DNA of 24,700 nt. It comes from a virus. Of this stretch, positions 1 to 14,936 are shown piece after piece. The notes beneath the pieces were generated by a model. It ran no database searches. It had not been told where the DNA came from and saw nothing but the letters and a program-made list of their open reading frames with translations. A program made the translations under genes and the position numbers. The stretch covers positions 1 to 24,700 of IMG/VR virus record IMGVR_UViG_3300046796_000539. The stretch is one strand, 5' to 3'. Position 1 is the stretch's first letter. Each line of letters begins with the position of its first letter.

Positions 1-849
1 CGGGTTCCGGCTTTGGGGCGTGGGCGAGGTGCCTAGGACGCCGAGTTTCGAATTCTTCTGGATACCCTTCGAAACAGCGATTTTCCCATTCGATTCGGCG
101 CGCGAGACGAGATCGTCATGGAGTAAGTCCCTCATCGCCGCACGAAACGAGCTGGTGCCGATTTTGCCGGCGTGCTCGCAGATGCGAACTTCGAGGGATT
201 TCCCGTTCTCGTCGGGGGAGTCCCAGTCTAAATCCGCATGTGACTTGCGGATGGACTGAATCTCTGTGTCGAGCGCTTGGTCTTCTTCGCGCTGTTTTGC
301 GGACTGTCTCTCAGTCGACCAGTCCTCTGCTAGTTTCTCAACTTTCGGCAAAATCTGCTCGAAATTCTGTAGCCGTTGTGCGAGCGACTCATAACGCGGG
401 TCGCCGCCGCCAGCTGGCGCCGCGGCTCCTGGCTGTTGCCCGCGCGTTTGCCACGACTGAATGACGTGACTCCACCACTCGGGGTTCGTCGCCGCGTACT
501 TATCGATTTCGAGATACGGCTGGAACTTCTGCTCGTACTTTTGGAATTCCGCCTGCTTCTCTTGGACGGTTTTCTCCCACGTCTGGCGCTCCTGATTGAA
601 TTTCGCCATGACCTGGGGCCGGTCGTAGCCCATCTGCGCCCATTTGATGATTTGCTCTCTGGCGGCTTTGATTTTCTTTCCGCCGTACTCAATCTCGTCC
701 TCATGCCAGACGCCGGGGGCGGCTCCCTTTGCGTCGGCTGGCGCTTCCTTCATCGAAGGGCCGCCGCTATTCGTCGCTATCTCGGTGCCGTCGGCGAGAG
801 AATCAAGTTCCGCGTCGCTGCGTGTGTCGGGAGAAACGTCTTCGGGCAT
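1..849 (-). CDS. Scaffold-like phage head protein (partial, C-terminus beyond window)
   Basis: The reading frame starts with ATG at 849 and stays open to the left edge (283 codons seen). The first 45 residues are acidic and Gly/Pro-rich. A long charged helical stretch follows (about residues 60-115, rich in Glu, Gln and Lys, for example QERQTWEKTVQEKQAEFQKY), then an Ala/Pro/Gly linker and a second Glu/Arg/Gln-rich helical part (about 155-200). This composition and the place two genes after the portal fit an internal scaffolding protein, which directs procapsid assembly and precedes the major capsid gene in many phages. It starts 4 bases after the previous stop, so it is probably translated by coupling; no strong ribosome binding site is seen. 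There is no sequence motif to prove the role, so a general structural protein remains possible. Confidence 0.6.
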   Translation of the reverse strand, partial: MPEDVSPDTRSDAELDSLADGTEIATNSGGPSMKEAPADAKGAAPGVWHEDEIEYGGKKIKAAREQIIKWAQMGYDRPQVMAKFNQERQTWEKTVQEKQAEFQKYEQKFQPYLEIDKYAATNPEWWSHVIQSWQTRGQQPGAAAPAGGGDPRYESLAQRLQNFEQILPKVEKLAEDWSTERQSAKQREEDQALDTEIQSIRKSHADLDWDSPDENGKSLEVRICEHAGKIGTSSFRAAMRDLLHDDLVSRAESNGKIAVSKGIQKNSKLGVLGTSPTPQSRNP

Positions 850-853
850 AGGT

Positions 854-1201
854 CTAGTAGCTCACTGGTTTTGCGTTTGCGTTCGCGTGCGCTGCCATGG
901 GGCCGCCGGCCGGAGGCGGACCCTGGGGGGCCGGGGCTTCCTGCGCGGGGCCCGAAATCGACTGCACGAAAGCGTCGGTCGCTTGCACGGCTGATTGAAA
1001 AAGCTGCATGTCCTCCGGGGACACGGCGCCTTGCGCTCCCTGCATCATTTCGGAAAGCTTTTTGAAGCCGTCTTGAATCGACTGAATTGCGGCCGACGCC
1101 TCGCCGCCTCCGCCTTCCGCGGATTCCTGCTCGGGCATTTCCTGCGACTCTTCTTCCGGCGATCCTTCTGCTCCGGGCGGTGCTTGCTTCATGTCAGCCA
1201 T
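854..1201 (-). CDS. Small acidic structural-region protein, unknown function
   Basis: 115 residues from ATG at 1201 (MADMKQAPPG...). The start is chosen because GAGG lies 5 bases upstream and because it overlaps the portal stop by only 8 bases; an upstream in-frame start at 1258 would overlap the portal by 65 bases. The N-terminal half is Glu/Gly/Pro-rich (EGSPEEESQEMPEQESAEGG), the middle is a predicted helix (IQSIQDGFKKLSEMMQGAQG), and the tail is Pro/Ala/Gly-rich. It lies between portal and scaffold-like genes, so a role in head assembly is likely by position, but no family is recognised. Confidence 0.7.
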   Translation of the reverse strand: MADMKQAPPGAEGSPEEESQEMPEQESAEGGGGEASAAIQSIQDGFKKLSEMMQGAQGAVSPEDMQLFQSAVQATDAFVQSISGPAQEAPAPQGPPPAGGPMAAHANANAKPVSY

Positions 1202-3209
1202 TCGTTCCTCGAAGTATTGGCGGGGTTGCCGCCTGGGTTTGAATTTCCAAAGCGGCAAGCGTCGTCTCTACCTGCGCCTTTTCCGCGTCGGCGGAATTCT
1301 TCTGCGCTTGCGCGGCATTCTTGTCGGCTTCGGCGGACTTCTTCTGCAAATCGACCTTGAGTCCCGCCATCTGCATCTGTTGCGCCTGCGCCTGCATGGC
1401 CTGCTTCTTCTCGCGCTGACGACGGAGAACCTTTTGCGCGTTCGGGTAGTCGATGCTTTCTAAGAGCTCTTCCTCGTCGATGACCTGCAGCTGATAGAGC
1501 TGCATCGCCATGTTCGACTTTTGCGCTTTCGCAAAGGGGAGTGACGTCCCGGTCGCGACTCTGACGTCGAATTCGCCGGCTATTTCAATTTCCTTCCGCC
1601 GCCCATCGGGATACGTCAGGTGCGCTACCTTTCGGATGGCGCCGTCGTCGCCGTCGAGTTTCTCGACGTGGAAGTAAAAGTATTCATCCGCTCCGGAATC
1701 GCCGGAAATGCGGACGACACGGGGCGCGGAATAGAACTGGAATACGCGCGAGAGGTAGAGTTTCCCCACGTCTTGCAGAAAGGCATCGATATGCTTCGAT
1801 TTGAGCCGGAGCCGCGTTTGTTGCGCCTCCTGCAAACTCGTGATTGCGCTAGCGGCTGTGACGTTCGTGGGCTCGACGCCCTTACTCAAGTCGGTTTGCC
1901 CCGAGACGCCGTTCAGGAACGTCCGGTACATCCCGATGAGCGGGAGTACATACGTCGGAAGTTCGACGCCTGGCTCTCGTCGCACTTCGCTACCCTGTGT
2001 CTTCTCGATGACGAGCCCGGGCTTATTAAAAAGGTTGTCGGTGTCGATGTTCGCCGTGTCGTCGACGATAAAGACGGGATTGCCCATGATTTGCAGGCAA
2101 TCCAGAGCGCACGCGAGGATTTTGTTAATCGTTTTCTGCGGGCTCTCGAGCGGCTCGATTTCACTGATGCCGTACAATTCTCGCGGGAGGGTGTAGTTCA
2201 CGAGACGCGCGAACGGAAACTGACCGTCGTCGAATCCTAGGTCTTCTCTTCGGTCCTCGCAGAGCACACCACCGGCGACGACGATGCGCCGGCCGTTCGG
2301 GTATTTGAGTTTCTGCGTGTACTGAATTTTCGGCTGGCCCTGGTCGTCGAGCTGCGGTGTCCCGTCTGAATCGGTTTCCGCTTCCTCGAGTTCCTCGTAG
2401 GACTCGTCCTTGATGTAGCAGGTGATTTTCAAGGCCTGCTCGCCGCGTCCCATGGAGTCGGCACCGCTCTCGCCCTCGACGGTGATGCGCGAATCGACCG
2501 GCGACTTGAACATGATTTGGTAGATTTCGCTCTTATCACCTTGAGCTAAATCCATGACGTCAGCGGTGAGGTATTCGGCCACGTCCGGGTAGTCTTTTTT
2601 CAGCTGCGTGAGATCGACGGGTTCCGCCGTGGTCCAGCAGTTCGTGCGCCGTCCGTTCACGTCGCGGGCGTTGGGATCGGGAAACACGTAGAACGGGTCC
2701 GCGCTTTCGAAAACGATGGCGCCGAGCCCCATGTCGGCCTTCGGGTCGTGGCCCACATACCCCCAGCCCGTCCCGTAGAAATGCTGCTCGTAGATAATTT
2801 CTACGAGCACCATGAGCCAGTTCATCCGGTCCCAGTCGTTGGCTGCGACTTTCGTCAGGATGTCGGCGAGCTCGTACTGTTCGGGAACGGTCGGGAGGTA
2901 TTCCAGCTTCGGCTTGCTATCGACGAGAATCGGCACCATGGACTGCACCGTCTCGAAAATCAGATTCAGGACTTCGTTCGAGCGGTACGACGGGCGGACT
3001 TCCTTCCACTGGCGTCCGCGGAACATTTTGTAGAAATCTATCCACCGCGTGTCGTAGCGTTTCCGGTAGCGTTTCGCTTTCTGGTAGATGCCCTCCGCCA
3101 TCTTAATGACGGAGCGCTCTTCTTCGCTGGGGTTGTAGCCCGCGCGCGGCCCGGTGGAATTCCCAGCGGATTCGTGTTCCGAGAGGAACGGGACTGAGAT
3201 TTCACTCAC
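1194..3209 (-). CDS. Phage portal protein
   Basis: 671 residues, GTG start overlapping the preceding stop as GTGA. Portal proteins form the dodecameric ring at the capsid vertex through which DNA is packaged and ejected and to which the tail attaches. The length and the style of the sequence fit the P22-like portals: an N-terminal helical part with a K/R-rich segment and WIDFYKMFRGRQW (about residues 45-70), a body with 'FESADPFYVFPDPNARD' (about 165-185), and a long Gln/Ala/Lys-rich C-terminal helix (about 590-660) resembling a barrel helix. It sits downstream of the terminase genes, the canonical place. The family assignment as P22-like is inferred from overall resemblance rather than alignment. 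Confidence 0.9.
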   Translation of the reverse strand: MSEISVPFLSEHESAGNSTGPRAGYNPSEEERSVIKMAEGIYQKAKRYRKRYDTRWIDFYKMFRGRQWKEVRPSYRSNEVLNLIFETVQSMVPILVDSKPKLEYLPTVPEQYELADILTKVAANDWDRMNWLMVLVEIIYEQHFYGTGWGYVGHDPKADMGLGAIVFESADPFYVFPDPNARDVNGRRTNCWTTAEPVDLTQLKKDYPDVAEYLTADVMDLAQGDKSEIYQIMFKSPVDSRITVEGESGADSMGRGEQALKITCYIKDESYEELEEAETDSDGTPQLDDQGQPKIQYTQKLKYPNGRRIVVAGGVLCEDRREDLGFDDGQFPFARLVNYTLPRELYGISEIEPLESPQKTINKILACALDCLQIMGNPVFIVDDTANIDTDNLFNKPGLVIEKTQGSEVRREPGVELPTYVLPLIGMYRTFLNGVSGQTDLSKGVEPTNVTAASAITSLQEAQQTRLRLKSKHIDAFLQDVGKLYLSRVFQFYSAPRVVRISGDSGADEYFYFHVEKLDGDDGAIRKVAHLTYPDGRRKEIEIAGEFDVRVATGTSLPFAKAQKSNMAMQLYQLQVIDEEELLESIDYPNAQKVLRRQREKKQAMQAQAQQMQMAGLKVDLQKKSAEADKNAAQAQKNSADAEKAQVETTLAALEIQTQAATPPILRGTNG

Positions 3210-3873: not shown

Positions 3874-5235
3874 TCATTGAACGATGCGTGTGCGGTGACT
3901 GGGCCGCATGAGCCGTTTGATTCGCGCTTCTTGTGTCTCGCTTCTCTCAGTGCCTTGTTCGGTAGGTGTGAACGGCGCGAGACGTGAGTGGTTACTCCAA
4001 GTCCTAAGGGTAACAAATCTGTTCGCCGACATACAGTGGTCGTTCTGACCGACGGGTAGGTCATCCTCGACGTCGTCGTCGGTGCCGACCTCCTGAGGTT
4101 CCGGGTAGTGGTAGGTTTCGTACTCGTCCTGCGAGTGCGGTGAGCTGCCTTTGAATATTTTGTAGCGGCGCGTCTTGAGGAGCTCGTAGTGCAGGTCCGT
4201 CCCGACTTGGATGTCCTTTTCGGGGACACCGATAGCGGGAATGCCGCGCTGGTTGAAGAGAAGAATATTTTCCGGCCGCTCGTGGCCGCAGAAGAATTGC
4301 CGAATGCCCCAGGTCTGCATTTTCTGCCGCGCTATGGCAATTTGGTCGGGAATCGTCATCCCGGTCTTATAGAATTCGGAGACCTGATAGTGCTCGTGCA
4401 TCGGCGTGACCGCGCGAACGACGATAACGAACGGCTCCGTGTGCCCCCAATCGATGCCGGCGTAGAACGTGGTGCCGCGGGGGAGCCGGAACGGCTCGCA
4501 GACGTTCTCGACGTCGTCGAAGCAGTCGTAGACGAGGCCTGATTGTTTGCCCCACTCACCGCCGAACAGCATTTCGAAGCGGCGGGGGTCCATGGAGGCC
4601 TGCATCTTGCGAAGGTTTTCTTCCTTCGAAAGTGAGTGGTAGGGGTTTTCCCACGATGCGGCGCGTATGAGTTTCACGCCGGCTACGGGCATCCCGCGCT
4701 CGAACGGTTTTATGTAGTCCTTGTAGAGCCAGTTTCGAGAATAGGGCGACGTGGTGTAGAGCCCCCGCGCTCCGACGGAGGCGGCTCGAGCGAGGATGTT
4801 CTCGTGAAAGTAGAGGGAAACTTTCCCCGCCTCATCGAGCCAATACGCTCTCGTGCGCGGAATACCGACGATGGAATCCGGATCCGTCTCAGTGCGGAAA
4901 TAGACGAATCCCCCGCCGTCGCGCTCGAATACGCCATCGGCTCTACGGTACGTGCCCATGTGCCGCGCGAAATCGAGGAAGTACGGCAGAACCGATTGGG
5001 AAAGGATCTTGTAGGTCGGGGAAAGAATGAGGAAGTTGTCTTCCTTCGACGTGAACTGGTGCATCTGGCGAATCATCCAGAGCGCCCCCGCGACGGACTT
5101 CCCAAATTGAGTACCGGTCCCGGCAATCGTGAGGTCGGAGTCCGAAAAAATCAGCTCCGACTGTTTCAGCGAGTGCGGGCGGAACCGGAACGCCGGCTCA
5201 CGGCTCGTCTTCGGTTTTGTAGAGGATGGCTTCAC
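3874..5235 (-). CDS. terL: Terminase large subunit
   Basis: 453 residues, the ATPase-nuclease motor that packages DNA into the prohead. The ATPase domain shows a Walker A-like motif GTQFGKS (residues 41-47), a Walker B AYWLDEAG (130-137; Asp134, Glu135) and a coupling-type motif TTSP (161-164). The nuclease domain begins at about residue 255 with FYAGIDWGHTEP, where Asp262 is the expected first metal ligand; a later acidic 'TDDDVEDDL' and 'NDHCMSANRF' fit the C-terminal nuclease motif. Start is GTG at 5235, overlapping the small subunit gene by 38 bases; no in-frame ATG occurs until inside the ATPase core. The order small subunit, large subunit, portal is classical. Confidence 0.95.
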   Translation of the reverse strand: MKPSSTKPKTSREPAFRFRPHSLKQSELIFSDSDLTIAGTGTQFGKSVAGALWMIRQMHQFTSKEDNFLILSPTYKILSQSVLPYFLDFARHMGTYRRADGVFERDGGGFVYFRTETDPDSIVGIPRTRAYWLDEAGKVSLYFHENILARAASVGARGLYTTSPYSRNWLYKDYIKPFERGMPVAGVKLIRAASWENPYHSLSKEENLRKMQASMDPRRFEMLFGGEWGKQSGLVYDCFDDVENVCEPFRLPRGTTFYAGIDWGHTEPFVIVVRAVTPMHEHYQVSEFYKTGMTIPDQIAIARQKMQTWGIRQFFCGHERPENILLFNQRGIPAIGVPEKDIQVGTDLHYELLKTRRYKIFKGSSPHSQDEYETYHYPEPQEVGTDDDVEDDLPVGQNDHCMSANRFVTLRTWSNHSRLAPFTPTEQGTERSETQEARIKRLMRPSHRTRIVQ

Positions 5236-8014: not shown

Positions 8015-8229
8015 GCGTCCACCATCCAAGCAAAACCACAATGCGGGCAGAGGCACTTATCGCCGAGATTCAACTCGTGCCCAATGGGCCGAAGGTTCGC
8101 CGGCCCGATAATGTCCCCGAGGGCCGGAGTCGCGATGCACTCGAGAATTGGCTCCTTGCAGCGGGGGCAACCAATGAGGTCGCCCTTTTCGGGTATCTCC
8201 TGGCGCTGAAAGATTTTCACTTCACGCAT
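8011..8229 (-). CDS. Small zinc-ribbon protein
   Basis: 72 residues, ATG at 8229. Two CxxC knuckles, CPRC near residue 21 and CPHC near 61, are separated by about 37 residues, the layout of a zinc ribbon. The remainder is Ile/Leu/Pro-rich and compact. It overlaps the upstream gene by 8 bases and the prim-pol gene by 4 (ATGA), so it belongs to the same transcript. Its place before prim-pol suggests a DNA-binding accessory, but function is unknown. Confidence 0.8.
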   Translation of the reverse strand: MREVKIFQRQEIPEKGDLIGCPRCKEPILECIATPALGDIIGPANLRPIGHELNLGDKCLCPHCGFAWMVDA

Positions 8230-9484
8230 GAAAGTAGCTCATCAGCGTATGGACGTCCGGTAGGTACTCGTCCGGCTCCCGTTTGAAATCAATGTGACAC
8301 CCAATCTCGGCGTTGTTCCAGTGCGCTTTCCTTTGCAGGATGCGGAGCAGTAAGCGCGAGTCCATGGAGCACTCGAGAAACGGCTTCGCTCTCGCGAGTC
8401 CCGTACCGTAGGTGCATTCCTTCGAATTGAAATTAAAGTGCGCCGCCGTCCCGTCGGGGGCCGAGATATACAGATTCAGATTCGGAAACGCGTTCCATCG
8501 GCCCTGATGTTTCCACAGGTTCTTTCGGGCCTCGAACAGGAAAAACGATAGCTCGGAAGTCTGAGCCCCCTCGTCCGCGTGGTGCGGGTAGGGAACATCG
8601 GAGAGAGACCGCGCATAATTCATCTGCTCGACGGGGTCGATAGGCCAGTACGGTGCCGACCTGGCGCCGGATTCGAGGTCTATCCATTGCCCTTCGTTCA
8701 GGAGCAAGGGAATCGCGTAGTCCCGGACGGTGCGGGCTGCGACTTCCGGCGACGTGGTGCCGAGAACGCGATTCTTCTCCCATTGCTCGCCGCCCAGGAT
8801 GTATTGCCCGGCAAACGGCATGACGTATTCGGGGGAGAGGATTTCCGAGACGGCCGCCAGGTGATTCAAGTTCCGGCTGATGACGCGGTGGTGTTCCGTT
8901 TCCCGGTCGATACGCGGAAAGCACGCGGGGTACGGGCCTGCGGCGTTGTAGTTGAGCTGCGCTACGGTGACTTTGCCGTGACGCAGTCGCAGCTTCCGCG
9001 CGGCTTCGAGACTCGGCGTGTTGTCGTTCGTATTGAGGACCGAGTGCTTTTCGCCCCGGACGAGGAGTGCCGAATCGATGACGTTTCCTATCTCGCAGTC
9101 GTGGAACGGGTGTTTCTCAAATGGCGCGTGCGGGACGAGACGGAAAGGCCCGAGCGCGTGCTCCCGTTCCGGTTCCAACGAGCGCACGTCGGTGAAGCCT
9201 TCGTCACGGAGCATTCGCTCGAGGACGTTCACTTTCGATTTCACCGTGACTATCGGCGTCGAGCGCGGGAATTCCCGCATGGTCCGGGCGTCGTAGTGGT
9301 CCGGGTGCAGGTGCGAGAGGTAGACGGCGCTCACTGTCGCGAGGCGGGCCGGCGTTGTCTGAATCGGCGGGTAGTGGAACCACGAGCCCTCGAATGCGCC
9401 GGGCGTGAGCCAGGGGTCCGAAAGCAGCGAGAAGCCTTTCTCCTCGTAGATGCAGCATGCGTTGGCAATGAAACAGAGCCTCAT
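8222..9484 (-). CDS. Metallo-beta-lactamase-fold protein related to the CMP-sialic acid hydroxylase MBL domain
   Basis: 420 residues. The N-terminus carries DPWLTPGAFEGSWFHYPP (residues about 23-40), then YLSHLHPDHYD with the HxHxDH metal motif at His58, His60, Asp62, His63, and later YVMPFAGQYI (about 215-225). These blocks resemble the MBL-fold part of CMP-N-acetylneuraminate hydroxylase (CMAH) and related bacterial proteins (UlaG-like superfamily). No Rieske CxH...CxxH domain is present, so hydroxylation by this protein alone is not expected. It overlaps the NeuB-family gene by 4 bases (ATGA), which strongly suggests a job in nonulosonic acid metabolism, perhaps hydrolysis or modification of a nucleotide sugar. 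The exact reaction is unknown. Confidence 0.8.
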   Translation of the reverse strand: MRLCFIANACCIYEEKGFSLLSDPWLTPGAFEGSWFHYPPIQTTPARLATVSAVYLSHLHPDHYDARTMREFPRSTPIVTVKSKVNVLERMLRDEGFTDVRSLEPEREHALGPFRLVPHAPFEKHPFHDCEIGNVIDSALLVRGEKHSVLNTNDNTPSLEAARKLRLRHGKVTVAQLNYNAAGPYPACFPRIDRETEHHRVISRNLNHLAAVSEILSPEYVMPFAGQYILGGEQWEKNRVLGTTSPEVAARTVRDYAIPLLLNEGQWIDLESGARSAPYWPIDPVEQMNYARSLSDVPYPHHADEGAQTSELSFFLFEARKNLWKHQGRWNAFPNLNLYISAPDGTAAHFNFNSKECTYGTGLARAKPFLECSMDSRLLLRILQRKAHWNNAEIGCHIDFKREPDEYLPDVHTLMSYFHA

Positions 9485-10347
9485 TTGCGGCGGAACGTAT
9501 CCGGCCCCGGAAGCCTGCGGGACTTCGCGACGAATTTCGCTTCCGACTCGTGCGGCTTTTTCACGCCGTCGCCCATCGCCTGGAATGCTTCGCGGATGGA
9601 CGCGACGTAGTGGGCCATTTCAATCGGTCCTATCGAGTGCGGCTCGTCCGGTGTAGCGGTGAGCTCGCCGCCCTCGTCGAAGGGAAAGAAGCTTGCTAGG
9701 AAGTGCTTTTCGAAAACCGTCGCGCCGCATCCGACGGCGGTGAGGGCGACGACGAGGGAGAGCGTGTGGTCGGAAATGCCGACCTGGTCAGACCACGCCT
9801 CCCGCCAGTGCATCATCTCGCGCAGGCTGTAGGCTGCCGGTAGCGCAGGGTACGCCGCGACGCACTCGAGAATAGACATCCGCCCGACCGGATCTTTATC
9901 GCCACCCCGCTCGTCGACATATTCCACGAACGCCAGCACGTCCGCCTCAGTCGCCCCGCCCGTCGATACGATGAAAGGTTTTCCCGTCGCTATCACCGCG
10001 TCGAGAATCCCCGTGTGCATCATTTCGGCCGACGCGATTTTGTGCCGCTTCACATGCGGGTCGACGACTCTCACGCCTTCCGCCGAAAACGCCGTACACA
10101 TGAATTCCACGCCGGCTCTATCGCAAGCGGCTTTGAGTTCCGGGAGCCATTCGGCGGGAAGCGCGAATGAGTCATCTCCCGGCACCCCATACAACTCCTC
10201 GTGAGTGAAGAGCTGAAACTTCACGGCGGATACGCCGGCACGCGCGGCCTCGTCGATGTGCTGCAAGGCGCATTCGAGATTCTTCGCGTCGTCGTTGTAG
10301 CGGCGCCAGTTCGAACCTACGTCGGCAATGATGAACGGGGCGGTCAT
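9481..10347 (-). CDS. neuB-like: NeuB-family nonulosonic acid (sialic/pseudaminic/legionaminic-type) synthase
   Basis: 288 residues from ATG at 10347; an in-frame TTG lies two codons upstream. The enzyme condenses phosphoenolpyruvate with an N-acetylated aminosugar to make a nine-carbon acid sugar. The TIM barrel is recognisable: IIADVGSNW (6-14), AVKFQLF (41-47), RHKIASAEMM (101-110), IVSTGGAT (126-133), ECVAAYPALPAAYSL (161-175), VGISDHTLS (189-197) and FEKHFL (212-217). Usual members have about 340 residues with a C-terminal SAF (antifreeze-like) domain; this one stops right after the barrel, so SAF is missing. It is the first gene of the leftward unit, diverging from the rest of the pathway, and overlaps the next gene by ATGA. 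Confidence 0.9.
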   Translation of the reverse strand: MTAPFIIADVGSNWRRYNDDAKNLECALQHIDEAARAGVSAVKFQLFTHEELYGVPGDDSFALPAEWLPELKAACDRAGVEFMCTAFSAEGVRVVDPHVKRHKIASAEMMHTGILDAVIATGKPFIVSTGGATEADVLAFVEYVDERGGDKDPVGRMSILECVAAYPALPAAYSLREMMHWREAWSDQVGISDHTLSLVVALTAVGCGATVFEKHFLASFFPFDEGGELTATPDEPHSIGPIEMAHYVASIREAFQAMGDGVKKPHESEAKFVAKSRRLPGPDTFRRK

Positions 10348-10363
10348 CGCCAAAGCCTACAGC

Positions 10364-10397
10364 GACTTCGCGTGACTTCCTACCCTAGCAAGTCACG
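10364..10397. promoter_or_regulatory. Divergent promoter region with inverted repeat, operator candidate
   Basis: The 79-bp gap 10348-10426 separates the leftward NeuB unit from the rightward sugar/lysis unit, so both promoters must lie here or overlap the genes. It contains a perfect 8-bp inverted repeat, CGTGACTT (10371-10378) and AAGTCACG (10390-10397), spaced by 11 bases, with an extra half-site GACTTC at 10364-10369. This is the form of a dimeric repressor or activator site. A possible rightward -10 (TACCAT, 10410-10415) lies 11 bases before the ATG at 10427, which would give a nearly leaderless message; no good -35 is seen, so promoter positions are tentative. Confidence 0.5.
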
Positions 10398-10426
10398 TGG
10401 GGTGTGCTCTACCATCCAAAAATCTC

Positions 10427-10633
10427 ATGACTGAAATATTGCTCGCCGTCTCCGTGGCCGTAAATTTGGCGCTCGTCGCGTGGGTCCTCTTCCGTAAGGT
10501 GCGCCCACCGCGCAGGCCGCAGTCGGAGGAGCTAAGAGAGTTCCTAGCCGACCTCACCGGCGGGAAAATCGGCTACGTCGCGGTAACGAGACTTAACCCC
10601 GACGACTTTCTTTTGAGGTCGCCGAAGCGATGA
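10427..10633 (+). CDS. Small single-pass membrane protein, first gene of rightward operon
   Basis: 68 residues from ATG at 10427 (MTEILLAVSV...); an in-frame GTG 30 bases upstream is less likely. Residues 3-22 form one membrane segment, followed by RKVRPPRRP (positive-inside anchor) and a cytoplasmic tail with ELREFLADL, a conserved-looking 'YVAVTRLNPDDFLLRSP' and a basic end. Small phage proteins with this membrane-plus-'DPDDxxLRSP' tail recur in head/lysis regions, but their function is not known. There is no clear ribosome binding site. It overlaps the PseB-like gene by ATGA, so it may set the translation of the sugar operon. Confidence 0.75.
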   Translation: MTEILLAVSVAVNLALVAWVLFRKVRPPRRPQSEELREFLADLTGGKIGYVAVTRLNPDDFLLRSPKR

Positions 10634-11472
10634 CCGCACTCATCACGGGCATCACGGGAACCCTCGGCACTATCGTCGCGGAGCGATTGCTCGAGGACGG
10701 AAGCACCGTCCGCGGCTTTTCCAGAGACGAGTGTAAGCAAGCGAAAATCCCGCGTCACGAGCGGCTCACACTCTATCTCGGTGACGTTCGGGACCGTGAC
10801 CGGCTCGTAGAGGCCGCGCGCGGCGTTGGCCTCATCTACCACTTCGCAGCCCTCAAACACGTCGACCAATTGGAGGCGAACCCAGAGGAGGCCGTACAAA
10901 CGAACATCCTCGGCACGGAGAACGTATTGCACGCGCAGCGGATGCTCGGGATCCCGCGCATCGTTCTCACCTCCACCGACAAGGCGGCGTATCCCGTGAA
11001 CGCCTACGGCATGTCGAAAGGCATCGCCGAGCGGCTCGTGCTGCGGAACCCGAACAACGTCGTCTGCCGCTACGGCAACGTGCTCGCGTCCAGGGGGTCC
11101 GTCGTCGAGGCATTCGTCCGGTCCTTGCGAGATGAAAAGGCGGTGTCCGTCACCGACTCTCAAATGACGCGGTTCTGGATAACGCAGGAGGACGCGGCCT
11201 CATTCGTGTTGTCCGCAGCGGCCGGCGGTGGCGGGCTCAAAATCCCCACGATGAAAATGGCGTCCGTTACACAAATCGCTGCGGCGGTCGCCTCGTGCAT
11301 GAATATTCATTCCTACCAGACGCGCCATGTCGGGGTGCGGCCGGGGGAGAAGCTATCGGAGTGCCTTCGCACCGAGCATGAGGGCGAGGAAGTCTATTCG
11401 CACCGCGCAGCACGGTTCACCGACGACGAGCTCTTTCAGCTTTTGAAGCCGATCGTCAGGAGGCTCATGTGA
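10630..11472 (+). CDS. pseB-like: PseB/CapD-like UDP-sugar 4,6-dehydratase (extended SDR)
   Basis: 280 residues. The Rossmann motif TGITGTLG (6-13) binds NAD(P). SRDECKQ (31-37), GDVRDRDRL (51-59), HFAALKHVD (71-79), TNILGTENV (91-99), STDKAAYPVNAYGMSK (115-130, with Thr-Asp-Lys 116-118 and YxxxK Tyr126/Lys130), RYGNVLASRGSV (147-158), MTRFWIT (179-185) and VRPGEKLSE match the UDP-GlcNAc 4,6-dehydratase/5-epimerase family (PseB, FlaA1). Such enzymes make the 4-keto-6-deoxy sugar at the start of pseudaminic or legionaminic acid synthesis. The C-terminus is shorter than usual members (about 330). It is the second gene of the rightward operon and overlaps both neighbours by 4 bases. Confidence 0.92.
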   Translation: MTALITGITGTLGTIVAERLLEDGSTVRGFSRDECKQAKIPRHERLTLYLGDVRDRDRLVEAARGVGLIYHFAALKHVDQLEANPEEAVQTNILGTENVLHAQRMLGIPRIVLTSTDKAAYPVNAYGMSKGIAERLVLRNPNNVVCRYGNVLASRGSVVEAFVRSLRDEKAVSVTDSQMTRFWITQEDAASFVLSAAAGGGGLKIPTMKMASVTQIAAAVASCMNIHSYQTRHVGVRPGEKLSECLRTEHEGEEVYSHRAARFTDDELFQLLKPIVRRLM

Positions 11473-12080
11473 TTCTCCTCGTCGGGTCTGAGGGCGCCCA
11501 GGGCAAACGGTACCAGGCGATTCTCAAGTATCTCGGGAAAGATTTCCGGCGCGTCGATGAGATATGGGGCGAGCCCACGTTCGACGATCCGAGCGTCCAG
11601 CCGGCCGCTTTTTCGGGCATTATATTGGCCACGCCGACCGACACTCACATTGACCAAGTGCGGCGGTACCTCGGCTGGCGCGTTCCCATCCTCGTCGAGA
11701 AGCCGTTCTCGAAAGACGTCGACGCTCTGAAAGCGCTGGAACCCGAAGCGAATGGCGTCCCTCTCTCCCTCGTCATGCAGTACCGACACCTGGCTATCGG
11801 AACAAAACAGGAGCCGTCGTTCTACGACTACTTCCGCCACGGAAACGACGGGCTCACATGGGATTGCCTGCAGACCATTGCTTTAGCGAAAGGCCCGGTG
11901 CGGCTATCGGAAGCATCGCCCGTGTGGAACTGCGTCATCAACGGGCACATGCTCAACATTGCCGATATGGACGGTGCCTACATTCGAGAGGTGCAGGACT
12001 GGCTTTCGGGCAGGCACCAGTCGTTTAGTGTAATTATCGACATTCACGAGAAGGTGAGGGCTTTTGGCGCTCGTCGCTAG
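11469..12080 (+). CDS. Gfo/Idh/MocA-type Rossmann protein, short
   Basis: 203 residues from GTG at 11469, overlapping the preceding stop as GTGA. The N-terminus MILLVGSEGAQGKRYQAIL is a Rossmann dinucleotide-binding start; GIILATPTDTHIDQVRRYL and ILVEKPFSKD (about residues 72-84, with the Glu-Lys-Pro motif) are hallmarks of Gfo/Idh/MocA oxidoreductases. Usual members have 330-380 residues with a C-terminal beta-sheet domain; here only about half of that domain remains, ending SVIIDIHEKVRAFGARR. It may be a reduced sugar dehydrogenase acting on an intermediate of the nonulosonic acid pathway. Such genes often accompany NeuB and SpsF genes, but the specific reaction is not known. Confidence 0.8.
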   Translation: MILLVGSEGAQGKRYQAILKYLGKDFRRVDEIWGEPTFDDPSVQPAAFSGIILATPTDTHIDQVRRYLGWRVPILVEKPFSKDVDALKALEPEANGVPLSLVMQYRHLAIGTKQEPSFYDYFRHGNDGLTWDCLQTIALAKGPVRLSEASPVWNCVINGHMLNIADMDGAYIREVQDWLSGRHQSFSVIIDIHEKVRAFGARR

Positions 12081-12795
12081 CCGGAAAATCGTCTCTATCG
12101 GCATTCAGGCCCGTTCGGGTTCCGTGCGATTGCCAGAAAAGTCGCTGAGGCTTCTCGGGAAACGGCCGGTCGTAGAGCACGTGTTCCGATCGGCGAGAGC
12201 TGCGGCCACACGATTGAACGCCCGCATGGAAGGCTACGGCATCGTCGTGTGCGACGTGTCGGTGCTGACACCGCCAGGCGACCCGATCATTTCGAAATTG
12301 AAACTCCCCACCCTCTCGGCACCGGGCGGTGAGGAGGACGTGTTGCTCCGGTACCACCACCTCGCAAACCACACGGGCGCTGACTACATTGTGCGCGTCA
12401 CCGGCGATTGCCCGCTACTTCCGCCGTCGGTGATAGTCCGCCACGTGAATATTGCGACGACGAACGAGTACGACTATTTATCCAACGTCGACGAAAGGTG
12501 CAGGACGGCACCGGACGGCTACGACTGTGAAGTGATTTCAAGGCGTCTTCTCACGTGGCTCCATGAGTCAGCGAAAGATGCGAGTGACCGCGAACACGTA
12601 ACGACTCTCGCGAGACGTGCGCCACCGGCATGGGCGAAACGGGGCGCCATCGTGAGTTCCTTAGACCTCTCGGCGATGAAGCTATCGATTGATACCGAAG
12701 CGGATTTCCAAAGCGTCGAGAACGAGGCCGGAAAAGTGGACAGAGCACTAGAGACGGCAGCGACACTCTTCGGGGCGAACGTGCACCGCATATGA
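12064..12795 (+). CDS. spsF-like: SpsF/NeuA-type cytidylyltransferase (CMP-nonulosonic acid synthetase candidate)
   Basis: 243 residues. The start is TTG at 12064, with AAGGTGAGG just upstream; no better start is in frame. SIGIQARSGSVRLPEKSL (11-28) is the nucleotide-binding loop (consensus QARxGSxRLPxK) of the SpsF/CMP-KDO synthetase family. EEDVLLRYHHLA, VRVTGDCPLLPPSV, DYLSNVD, PDGYDCEVIS, DREHVT and LSIDTEADF follow in the family order. It would activate the nine-carbon sugar with CTP to the CMP form used by glycosyltransferases. It overlaps the preceding gene by 17 bases and the aminotransferase by ATGA. Specificity for a nonulosonic acid is inferred from the neighbouring NeuB. Confidence 0.88.
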   Translation: MALVASRKIVSIGIQARSGSVRLPEKSLRLLGKRPVVEHVFRSARAAATRLNARMEGYGIVVCDVSVLTPPGDPIISKLKLPTLSAPGGEEDVLLRYHHLANHTGADYIVRVTGDCPLLPPSVIVRHVNIATTNEYDYLSNVDERCRTAPDGYDCEVISRRLLTWLHESAKDASDREHVTTLARRAPPAWAKRGAIVSSLDLSAMKLSIDTEADFQSVENEAGKVDRALETAATLFGANVHRI

Positions 12796-14009
12796 AAGCA
12801 AAGCCCGCATTCGATTCGCAGTTCCTCGGACGCGCTGAAAAGGCGATAGCGCACGGCGCTCTGACTAACTCCAAGCGCCCCTCGTCTTTCGTCAAAGGCG
12901 TCTATCCGACGCACCTCACGAAAGGAAAGGGCTGCTACGTCTGGGATAGGGCCGGGAACCGCTACACGGATTTCATCTGCGGGCTCGGTTCGAATCTGCT
13001 CGGCTACGCGAACGACGAAATCAATGACGCGATGGCTGCGCAAGCCCGGCTCGGGGCGACGCTCTCGCTCGGGACTGAGATTGAAGTCGAGCTCGCGGAG
13101 CGAGTGCGGGAGCTGTTCCCGTTCGTCGAGCGGCTGCGGTTCCTCAAGACTGGAAGCGACGCATGCACCGCGGCTCTCCGCATCGCGAGAGCGTCGACCG
13201 GGCTCTCGGGCGCGCTCAGCGACGGATACCACGGCTGGCACGATGAATTCGTTTCTCTCACGCCGCCGGCCAGTGGAGTTGGTGACTATTCCCAGTGCAT
13301 TTCTCGCCTTTCGTCGTTCATGGCGCATGACTGGCGCAGCGTCGCCGCAGTCATTGTCGAGCCGATTATCACCGACGCGTCCGCAGAGAGAATCGCGTGG
13401 CTGCGCGAGCTGCGGGAGAGCTGCACGAAAGCCGGCGCCGTCCTCATTTTCGACGAGGTGATCACGGGCCTCCGCTTCCCGGCACTCTCCGTCGCAAAAC
13501 AATACGGCATAGAGCCGGACCTCATCTGCCTCGGAAAAGCGTTCGGCGGCGGAATGCCGCTCTCCATCGTCGGCGGGCGCCGCGACAGCATGGAATCGGA
13601 CTACTTCGTTTCCTCGACGTTCGCGGGGGAGACGCTTTCCCTGGCGGCGGCGAAAAAGACGCTCGAACTACTCACCTCCGGCCGCTACAACGTGCAGCAT
13701 TTGTGGGATGCCGGCGAAAAGTTTATGGGTCGCTTCAATGAGACGACGGCCGGCGTCGTGGGCCTCGAAGGCTACGCGACACGGTCGAAACTCACCGGAA
13801 CGCCTGAAATGCGCGCGCTCTTCATGCAGGAAGCGTGCAGAGCGGGACTACTCTTCGGTCCCAGTTTCTTTTTCAATTTCCCTCACATGGAAATCGTCGA
13901 CGAGGTTTTGTCGACGGTCTCTGACATCGTAAGCCGTATCAAAACGGGCTCTGTCAGTCTCGAAGGCGAGATGCCGCAGGCGCCCTATGCAGAAAAGGTA
14001 AGGTCATGA
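12792..14009 (+). CDS. Class III PLP aminotransferase (glutamate-1-semialdehyde aminomutase-like)
   Basis: 405 residues. The fold-type I PLP motifs are plain: GYHGWHDEF (145-153), VAAVIVEP (184-191), LIFDEVITGLRF with Asp221 contacting the pyridine nitrogen, and LGKAFGGGMPLS with the Schiff-base Lys249; STFAGETLSL follows. This is the GSA-aminomutase/class III branch, not the DegT/PseC branch normally used to aminate 4-keto sugars. In the operon it occupies the place of PseC, so its likely job is transamination of the keto sugar made by the dehydratase. Tetrapyrrole synthesis is unlikely given the context. Overlaps of 4 bases on both sides indicate coupling. Confidence 0.92.
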   Translation: MKAKPAFDSQFLGRAEKAIAHGALTNSKRPSSFVKGVYPTHLTKGKGCYVWDRAGNRYTDFICGLGSNLLGYANDEINDAMAAQARLGATLSLGTEIEVELAERVRELFPFVERLRFLKTGSDACTAALRIARASTGLSGALSDGYHGWHDEFVSLTPPASGVGDYSQCISRLSSFMAHDWRSVAAVIVEPIITDASAERIAWLRELRESCTKAGAVLIFDEVITGLRFPALSVAKQYGIEPDLICLGKAFGGGMPLSIVGGRRDSMESDYFVSSTFAGETLSLAAAKKTLELLTSGRYNVQHLWDAGEKFMGRFNETTAGVVGLEGYATRSKLTGTPEMRALFMQEACRAGLLFGPSFFFNFPHMEIVDEVLSTVSDIVSRIKTGSVSLEGEMPQAPYAEKVRS

Positions 14010-14200
14010 CTGAATTCCATAAGCAGATGTTGAAATTCGTCGAGGAGTCCCAGGACATTCAAAAGCGCACGGCGCAGCTCCAGGCGGATACTGGGATTTT
14101 CAATGAGAAGCTGGGATCGTTTTTGAAGGAGAGCGGGCTCCCTGAGAATTTCTCGATTCCCGAAATCTGCCTCCTCGCCATCCGAAAGGCGCAGGGGTGA
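14006..14200 (+). CDS. 64-residue helical protein inside the sugar operon, unknown
   Basis: The gene is held between aminotransferase (ATGA overlap) and acetyltransferase (GTGA overlap), which makes it very likely to be real. It reads as one or two amphipathic helices (HKQMLKFVEESQDIQKRTAQ, then FNEKLGSFLKESG) and ends in a short hydrophobic helix (IPEICLLAIRKAQ). It lacks the Asp-Ser-Leu motif of an acyl carrier protein, has one cysteine and no membrane span. It may be a small partner of the sugar enzymes, or an unrelated phage protein captured in the operon. No family is recognised. Confidence 0.75.
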   Translation: MTEFHKQMLKFVEESQDIQKRTAQLQADTGIFNEKLGSFLKESGLPENFSIPEICLLAIRKAQG

Positions 14201-14730
14201 TCGATAGGCCCGACAGCGACGGGCGGACGTATCTAGAGGCGCGCGTCTCGCCCAGGGCTAGGCGATGGCGAAACACGCCCGAAATAAACCGCTGGTGCCG
14301 GCAGCACACGGACATCACGCCGTCGGATCACCGCGCGTGGTTGAAGCGTATTGCCGATGACCGCACCATCCGAATGTTTACGGTAGTAGGCGGCGTGAAA
14401 CACGAGGACGTCGGCGTGTGCGGGCTAACGTCGATAGACCACGTCAATCAGTCGGCGGAATTCTCGCTCTACATTGGATGGGAATACCAACGAGAGGGCT
14501 ACGGGCTCGACGCGCTCGAAACGCTTGTGCGCCACGGATTTACCGCGCTCAATCTTAACCGCATCTGGGGTGAGGTGTTCGACGAAAATCCCGCCATGGA
14601 AATGTTTAAGCAGGTCGGATTCAAACTCGAAGGGAAGCTTCGCGAATCATATTTTCGAGACGGTCGATTCATCCATTCGCATATGATTTCACTTCTCAGG
14701 AATGACTGGTGTTCGCGCTCGGCTTCATAA
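14197..14730 (+). CDS. pseH-like: GNAT acetyltransferase (PseH/RimJ-like)
   Basis: 177 residues from GTG at 14197. The RimJ/RimL-type GNAT pattern is seen: ARRWRNTPEINRWCRQ (20-35), SDHRAWLKRI (43-52), DVGVCGLTSIDHVNQSAEFSLYIG (about 71-94), the acetyl-CoA loop region YQREGYGLDALETL (about 97-110), FTALNLNRIWGEVFDENPAMEMFKQVGFKLEG (about 114-145) and REGYF-like RESYFRDGRFIHSHMISLL. PseH and FlmH enzymes of pseudaminic synthesis have the same layout, so this protein probably N-acetylates the amino sugar made by the upstream aminotransferase. It is the last recognisable sugar gene and overlaps the following membrane protein gene by 22 bases. Confidence 0.88.
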   Translation: MIDRPDSDGRTYLEARVSPRARRWRNTPEINRWCRQHTDITPSDHRAWLKRIADDRTIRMFTVVGGVKHEDVGVCGLTSIDHVNQSAEFSLYIGWEYQREGYGLDALETLVRHGFTALNLNRIWGEVFDENPAMEMFKQVGFKLEGKLRESYFRDGRFIHSHMISLLRNDWCSRSAS

Positions 14731-14936
14731 GTGGGCTTATAGCCTCTGCTTTTTTCATCGCCGCAGGACTCTATTGCTCTAGGTACTTCTCCCGTCCAAA
14801 CGGTGAGACAATAGCGGGAACCGCACCCGCACCCGGCGTTTTGTTCCGGCGCCGCGAACGCAAGAAGCCAAAATCCGTCAGTGAATTAGATCAGTGGCGC
14901 CGCGAGCAGGAGGCCCCGCCCGGCGATCCCACTTAA
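14709..14936 (+). CDS. Small membrane protein, lysis-region (holin-type candidate)
   Basis: 75 residues from GTG at 14709, preceded by AGGA at good spacing inside the acetyltransferase gene. Residues 2-24 form a single hydrophobic span (FALGFISGLIASAFFIAAGLY), then a basic cytoplasmic tail (FRRRERKKPKS) ending in a polar helix SELDQWRREQEAP. The layout, one N-terminal span and a charged tail, fits a holin, antiholin or other small phage membrane protein. Its position between sugar genes and endolysin supports a lysis role but does not prove it. Confidence 0.65.
   Translation: MFALGFISGLIASAFFIAAGLYCSRYFSRPNGETIAGTAPAPGVLFRRRERKKPKSVSELDQWRREQEAPPGDPT

Follow-up and report, generated by a model that had tools for sequence, protein, structure and literature searches.

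A conserved nonulosonate gene cassette in an uncultured phage lineage and its predicted use in virion glycosylation

Genes of the cassette

The stretch of DNA analysed here (the window, 24.7 kb) is an IMG/VR virus record, IMGVR_UViG_3300046796_000539, and represents a fragment of a phage genome that carries a cassette of predicted nonulosonic acid biosynthesis genes at positions 8222–14730. A preliminary description of this DNA had placed seven such genes amid phage genes, and this was borne out: all seven are intact open reading frames (ORFs) with Pfam matches ranging from 1e-5 (Gfo/Idh) to 5e-64 (PseB-like), and phage genes lie on both sides, with portal, terminase large subunit (TerL), HNH endonuclease, DNA methyltransferase and a primase-like protein to the left and endolysin, DnaB-like helicase and an Erf-like protein to the right. 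The minus strand encodes NeuB and a metallo-beta-lactamase (MBL)-fold protein; the plus strand encodes the five further enzymes, in a run whose first gene, at 10397, is that of a small membrane protein. Small ORFs at 10397–10633, 14006–14200 and 14709–14936 are part of the conserved block too, which reads as follows.

8222–9484, minus strand: MBL-fold protein, 420 aa, HxHxDH motif, accessory (Pfam Lactamase_B_2/3; Lactamase_B_2 1e-6)
9481–10353, minus strand: NeuB-family synthase, catalytic barrel only, 290 aa (PF03102 5e-48)
10397–10633, plus strand: SM1, small predicted membrane protein at the head of the cassette
10630–11472, plus strand: PseB-type (inverting) UDP-N-acetylglucosamine (UDP-GlcNAc) 4,6-dehydratase, 280 aa (PF02719, Polysacc_synt_2, 5e-64; TIGR03589 3e-59)
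11469–12080, plus strand: short Gfo/Idh/MocA-type NAD-binding protein, 203 aa (PF01408, GFO_IDH_MocA, 1e-5, N-terminal part only)
12064–12795, plus strand: SpsF-type cytidylyltransferase, predicted to activate a sugar as its CMP derivative (PF02348, CTP_transf_3, 4e-13)
12792–14009, plus strand: class III (GSA-like) aminotransferase (AT3) dependent on pyridoxal phosphate (PLP), 405 aa (PF00202, Aminotran_3, 1e-40)
14006–14200, plus strand: small ORF in the gap between aminotransferase and acetyltransferase; many relatives have a small ORF at the equivalent position
14197–14730, plus strand: GNAT acetyltransferase, PseH/SpeG-like (PF13302, Acetyltransf_3, 2e-15; TIGR03585 PseH 1.8e-21, under cut-off)
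14709–14936, plus strand: small membrane protein after the cassette and before the endolysin gene, possibly holin-like (homologues in the relatives G002 and G004, in G004 at the corresponding place)

Against the Protein Data Bank (PDB), lineage profiles gave as top matches the inverting dehydratases 4j2o and 2gn4 for PseB, 6oew for the cytidylyltransferase (6e-31) and the pseudaminic acid synthase 8h2c for NeuB (4e-61), while the GNAT profile scored SpeG above PseH. NCBIfam models matched PseB (3e-59), PseH (1.8e-21) and NeuB/PseI (about 1e-45/1e-40, the window NeuB scoring the two about equally), all under the equivalog cut-offs. Thus, by sequence, the window NeuB, PseB and PseH are divergent relatives of the named families rather than certified orthologues.

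Conservation across one phage lineage

Searches of IMG/VR with NeuB and the MBL-fold protein led to two phages, L002 and L013. The latter resembles the window in its portal (57% identity) and TerL, and its NeuB and MBL proteins also match. The window genes that anchor this comparison, or mark where the fragment stops, are listed below.

1–849, minus strand: scaffold-like protein at the cut end (ORF family in 18/20 contigs)
1194–3209, minus strand: portal protein (phrog_156 2e-58), the anchor for the lineage search
3874–5235, minus strand: TerL (phrog_2 9e-37; 62% identity to L013 by alignment)

A portal-profile search returned 45 loci, most of which are clear relatives at 37–63% identity; in most of these with enough length, the NeuB gene lies upstream of that for TerL and the capsid gene is followed by one for a 340-aa PF01973 protein. 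Among 31 whole records, PF03102 was present in 21, PF01973 over its cut-off in 28 and PF02348 in 14; restricted to the 12 records that reach 32 kb, the numbers were 11, 12 and 11, with NeuB and CTP_transf_3 together in 11/12. Clustering of ORFs from 20 contigs placed AT3 and NeuB in 16 each, GNAT and the cytidylyltransferase in 14 each, PseB in 13, SM1 in 13 (mostly directly 5' of PseB), the Gfo/Idh protein in 12 (between PseB and the cytidylyltransferase) and the MptE-like PF01973 protein in 18, the two contigs without the latter being the window and G015, fragments that end before that region. The gene order of the window, SM1, PseB, Gfo/Idh, cytidylyltransferase, AT3, a small ORF and GNAT, recurs across contigs.

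We found that the divergence of the cassette proteins tracks that of the portal. Mantel correlations with portal distances were 0.75 for the MptE-like protein, 0.74 for the cytidylyltransferase, 0.67 for NeuB and 0.61 for AT3 (each p=2e-4), as expected of a module passed down together with the rest of the phage genome. They were 0.55 for Gfo/Idh, 0.50 for PseB and, more weakly, 0.32 for GNAT (p=0.026). Mean identities of the cassette proteins are only 34–53%, yet the predicted catalytic positions are invariant: T116-D117-K118, Y126 and K130 of PseB (the TDK and YxxxK motifs), the QAR-S-R-P-K motif of the cytidylyltransferase (13 sequences), the PLP lysine K249 and D221 of AT3, and K45, K105, H196, H217 and D236 of NeuB (13 sequences, predicted metal-binding histidines included), in which S108 and S194 are conserved as well. 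The preliminary description had named substitution of catalytic residues in NeuB and the cytidylyltransferase as a ground for doubt; the alignments contain none, with the exception that the window NeuB stops short of its SAF domain (see below). The conserved order, the co-divergence with phage core genes and the invariance of these predicted residues lend good support to its central proposal, a phage-directed nonulosonate pathway.

Lineage-wide conservation and co-divergence with the portal rule out a recent or stray moron, and an assembly chimera was ruled out because relatives from other metagenomes have the same genes. The cassette is best read as part of the core gene set of one uncultured lineage of probably podovirus-like phages. 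The sole exception among the 12 longest records is G011 (L079:9932–11090), in which SM1 is retained, the aminotransferase is shortened, degenerate and without its PLP lysine, and NeuB, the cytidylyltransferase and PseB are gone, a state that reads as decay.

The MBL-fold gene is distributed differently. A homologue of 44% identity adjoins NeuB in one related phage represented by two contigs (L013/L014), and the gene was absent from the remaining relatives searched. The protein had been called CMAH-like; of the Rieske and MBL-like domains of CMAH it has the MBL part only, no cassette protein giving a Pfam match to a Rieske domain. A structure model of it was too poor to be used (pLDDT 37.5). 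Full-length homologues (about 30%) occur on haloarchaeal plasmids (compared: window 8222–9484 and L114:12001–13362), the one in Halobaculum salinum having genes for Gfo/Idh, glmU, a flippase and a glycosyltransferase in its vicinity.

A Maf/MptE-like transferase and the proposed route

In the relatives, the scaffold-like gene is followed by the gene for the major capsid protein (MCP), one for a protein of ~160 aa and that for the 340-aa Maf/MptE-like protein, which lies just 3' of MCP in 12/12 contigs of at least 32 kb; no PF01973 match occurs in the window fragment. An AlphaFold model of this protein from G002, a relative that shares the NeuB–MBL pair with the window (pLDDT 79, pTM 0.81), had as its top Foldseek match in the PDB the Maf glycosyltransferase 5MU5 (E 3e-6, prob 1.0), then MptE and, lower, human ST8SiaIII, and 5MU5 was also the only PDB match of the sequence profile at E <0.001. 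Maf enzymes transfer nonulosonates from CMP donors onto Ser/Thr of flagellin in O-linkage, and their pfam01973 domain resembles that of the sialyltransferase Cst-II (PMC11339370). Since Maf is the best fold match, a pterin role of the MptE-like gene is disfavoured, and the model suggests that the CMP-sugar of the cassette has a phage-encoded user.

The left end of the window falls inside the scaffold-like gene, short of the capsid gene, so that the window phage's own copy of the transferase, as predicted from its relatives, would probably sit beyond that end. The lack of a visible glycosyltransferase, which had led the preliminary description to assign the sugar to host transferases, is thus probably explained by where the fragment ends, and the assignment itself is probably wrong, given that relatives covering the post-capsid region encode the Maf/MptE-like protein. 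An exact 38-base pattern search found no viral contig overlapping the left end, and a promoter scan found no sigma-70 type promoters. The only hit of a Maf-like profile search of genome contigs was a 3.5 kb contig from an Actinomycetota metagenome-assembled genome, too weak to name a host.

Two purposes had been offered for the sugar, of which virion decoration fits these data better and a change of the host surface less well. Under the latter, the sugar would mainly be placed on lipopolysaccharide, capsule or flagellin of the infected or lysogenic cell by a phage or host transferase, blocking rival phages or altering receptors. Lysogeny is possible because some relatives have tyrosine integrase-like genes (ORF cluster 28; L013 ORF 159–809; by eye), and two reports describe prophage genes that alter capsule nonulosonates of Acinetobacter baumannii (PMC12053666, PMC6586298). 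However, the transferase gene has a fixed position beside the capsid gene, the cassette is lineage-wide and not a variable moron, and the window has no recognisable gene of lipid-carrier or polymerase type, and we thus consider a host-surface role unlikely as the main one.

Our favoured explanation, to which we assign a probability of roughly 0.6, is a phage-encoded nonulosonate virion-glycosylation system, probably largely self-contained and decorating the virion at its head. PseB-type enzymes use UDP-GlcNAc, which the phage enzyme would convert into UDP-4-keto-6-deoxy-HexNAc (HexNAc, N-acetylhexosamine); the class III aminotransferase and the GNAT would then install an amine and acetylate it. 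After loss of UDP, NeuB would join the hexose with phosphoenolpyruvate to give a nine-carbon acid, which the SpsF-type enzyme would turn into a CMP-sugar, and the Maf/MptE-fold (sialyltransferase-like) protein encoded 3' of MCP would transfer the sugar to a virion protein, the likeliest acceptor being the capsid protein or the ~160 aa protein encoded between the two. The MBL and short Gfo/Idh proteins may tailor the sugar, and the coat might shield or stabilise the virion or help in adsorption. The claim that the cassette covers successive steps of pseudaminic (Pse), legionaminic (Leg) or sialic acid synthesis holds for the families of the dehydratase (PseB/LegB; PF02719), the synthase and the predicted CMP-sugar synthetase (PF02348), while no PseC-type aminotransferase or PseG/NeuC-type enzyme for UDP removal was found in the lineage.

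Several points weigh against this explanation. The DegT-type aminotransferase (PseC/LegC, PF01041), the class to which SpsC belongs, was absent from 22 records including the window, its place being occupied by the class III enzyme; of the families for a UDP-sugar hydrolase or hydrolysing epimerase (PseG, LegG/NeuC), PF02350 was absent from 22 records and PF04101 from 13. None of the three turned up in the lineage records searched, so one step of the route has to be supplied by the host or by a protein that escaped recognition. Glycosylation of a virion protein is itself a prediction from gene content, and the transferase is encoded in relatives and not in the window. PF01973 also includes the pterin enzyme MptE, the TM-score of the modelled transferase to Maf is modest (0.44 of the query), and G011 has the MptE-like gene despite its decayed cassette. 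Finally, the window NeuB lacks the C-terminal SAF domain, which in known synthases supplies a substrate-binding arginine, and this copy may for that reason be weak.

The loss of SAF raises the question of whether the pathway is decaying and non-functional in the window phage, SAF having perhaps been lost upon gain of the MBL gene. NeuB breaks off where SAF would begin, and its stop codon shares the bases ATGA with the start of the MBL gene; the domain aligns in the 12 other members of the NeuB alignment, G024 and G028 are truncated at this place too, and G011 offers an example of cassette decay. Yet no other ORF of the cassette is broken, their predicted catalytic residues are invariant, and SAF-less NeuB homologues exist elsewhere, in PDB 6ncs (290 aa, crystallised) and in the phage L006 (264 aa). 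We judge decay in the window phage improbable, more so than a host-surface role.

The missing DegT and PseG counterparts also bear on which sugar is made. A scan with an aminotransferase profile yielded 80 viral loci, 68 with PseB and the cytidylyltransferase close by and 24 with the cytidylyltransferase and AT3 in one reading frame, which in L168–L195 (e.g. L174:7239–9236, L187:7212–9233) encodes ~670 aa and adjoins PseB and often NeuB. In L174 and L187, a Gfo/Idh-like ORF lies 5' of this fusion and, close to PseB, there is a distinct DegT-like enzyme (by eye); because of this pairing the class III enzyme may instead come in at a late stage, with the ulosonic acid as its substrate. The product could then be a different or modified ulosonic acid, such as an amino-ulosonate, oxidised by Gfo/Idh, aminated by the class III enzyme and activated by the SpsF-type enzyme, much as in the synthesis of 8-amino-Kdo (Kdo8N; Kdo, 3-deoxy-D-manno-oct-2-ulosonic acid); class III enzymes do include sugar C6' aminotransferases. 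This alternative is doubtful though not negligible: the PseB-type dehydratase and PseH-like GNAT speak for a diamino sugar of the Pse/Leg kind, pseudaminic acid synthase is the closest match of the NeuB profile, and the Kdo8N route serves as an analogy.

Related sets and known systems

Related sets are not confined to this lineage. At least L006, a phage that differs in the type of its TerL, portal and capsid, also has a PseB–cytidylyltransferase–AT3–NeuB set. L006:19238–20119 and L004:14845–16470 encode mutually related proteins (BLASTP 3e-10) in PseB–NeuB phages of other types. The L006 protein after the capsid gene was considered as CstI-like, on a motif only, and is kept as a lead (PDB E 0.36; hhalign to the Maf-like profile fails). 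L174:12632–13978, beside a nonulosonate cluster, looks by eye like a TROVE/Ro-type RNA-binding protein. Among INPHARED phages there were no matches to the Maf-like protein, cytidylyltransferase or MBL protein, and two weak ones to NeuB. A broader proposal, in which nonulosonate synthesis, CMP activation and Maf-type transfer are lineage-wide core virion-maturation genes, capsids acquire sialic-acid-like sugars through a class III route without PseC/PseG, and related sets occur in phages whose structural genes differ, we advance tentatively, at slightly less than even odds.

The closest known system is bacterial flagellin glycosylation with Pse/Leg and Maf, which shares the PseB-type dehydratase, GNAT, NeuB-family synthase, cytidylyltransferase and PF01973 transferase (5MU5 being the best structural match), whereas here the genes are phage-encoded and adjoin a capsid rather than a flagellin gene, the aminotransferase is of class III, and no PseC/PseG was found. 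The phage transferase, at 340 aa, has little beyond the MptE-like domain, and its acceptor would differ from that of Maf. The B. subtilis sps legionaminic pathway (SpsM/C/D/G/E/F; PMC7439481) likewise uses a NeuB-type SpsE, an SpsF-type cytidylyltransferase, UDP-linked precursors and a GNAT, but serves the spore surface, and counterparts of SpsG (PseG-like) and SpsC were not found in the phages. Mycobacteriophage virions carry glycans on capsid and tail subunits (Freeman et al. 2023, as cited in PMC12619734), although, as far as that citing text goes, their enzymes are unrelated and nonulosonate biosynthesis is not reported for them. In A. baumannii, the prophage enzymes EpaA/EpaB also act on nonulosonates (Pse to 8ePse) but reportedly alter a host-made sugar for the host capsule, with no de novo pathway (PMC12053666).

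In the open literature, with most subscription papers and preprints outside the scope of the search, we found no account of phages making nonulosonates for their virions. The sialic-acid-like coat familiar from animal-virus particles is taken from the host cell. If the proposal is true, a phage equipped with a synthesis pathway and, in its relatives, a capsid-adjacent transferase would stand as a self-contained example among bacterial viruses; it would also suggest a function for the MptE-like proteins that have been annotated in uncultured phages without experimental work, open a shortened nonulosonate route to dissection, and supply a testable reason for virion glycosylation in shielding, stability or adsorption.

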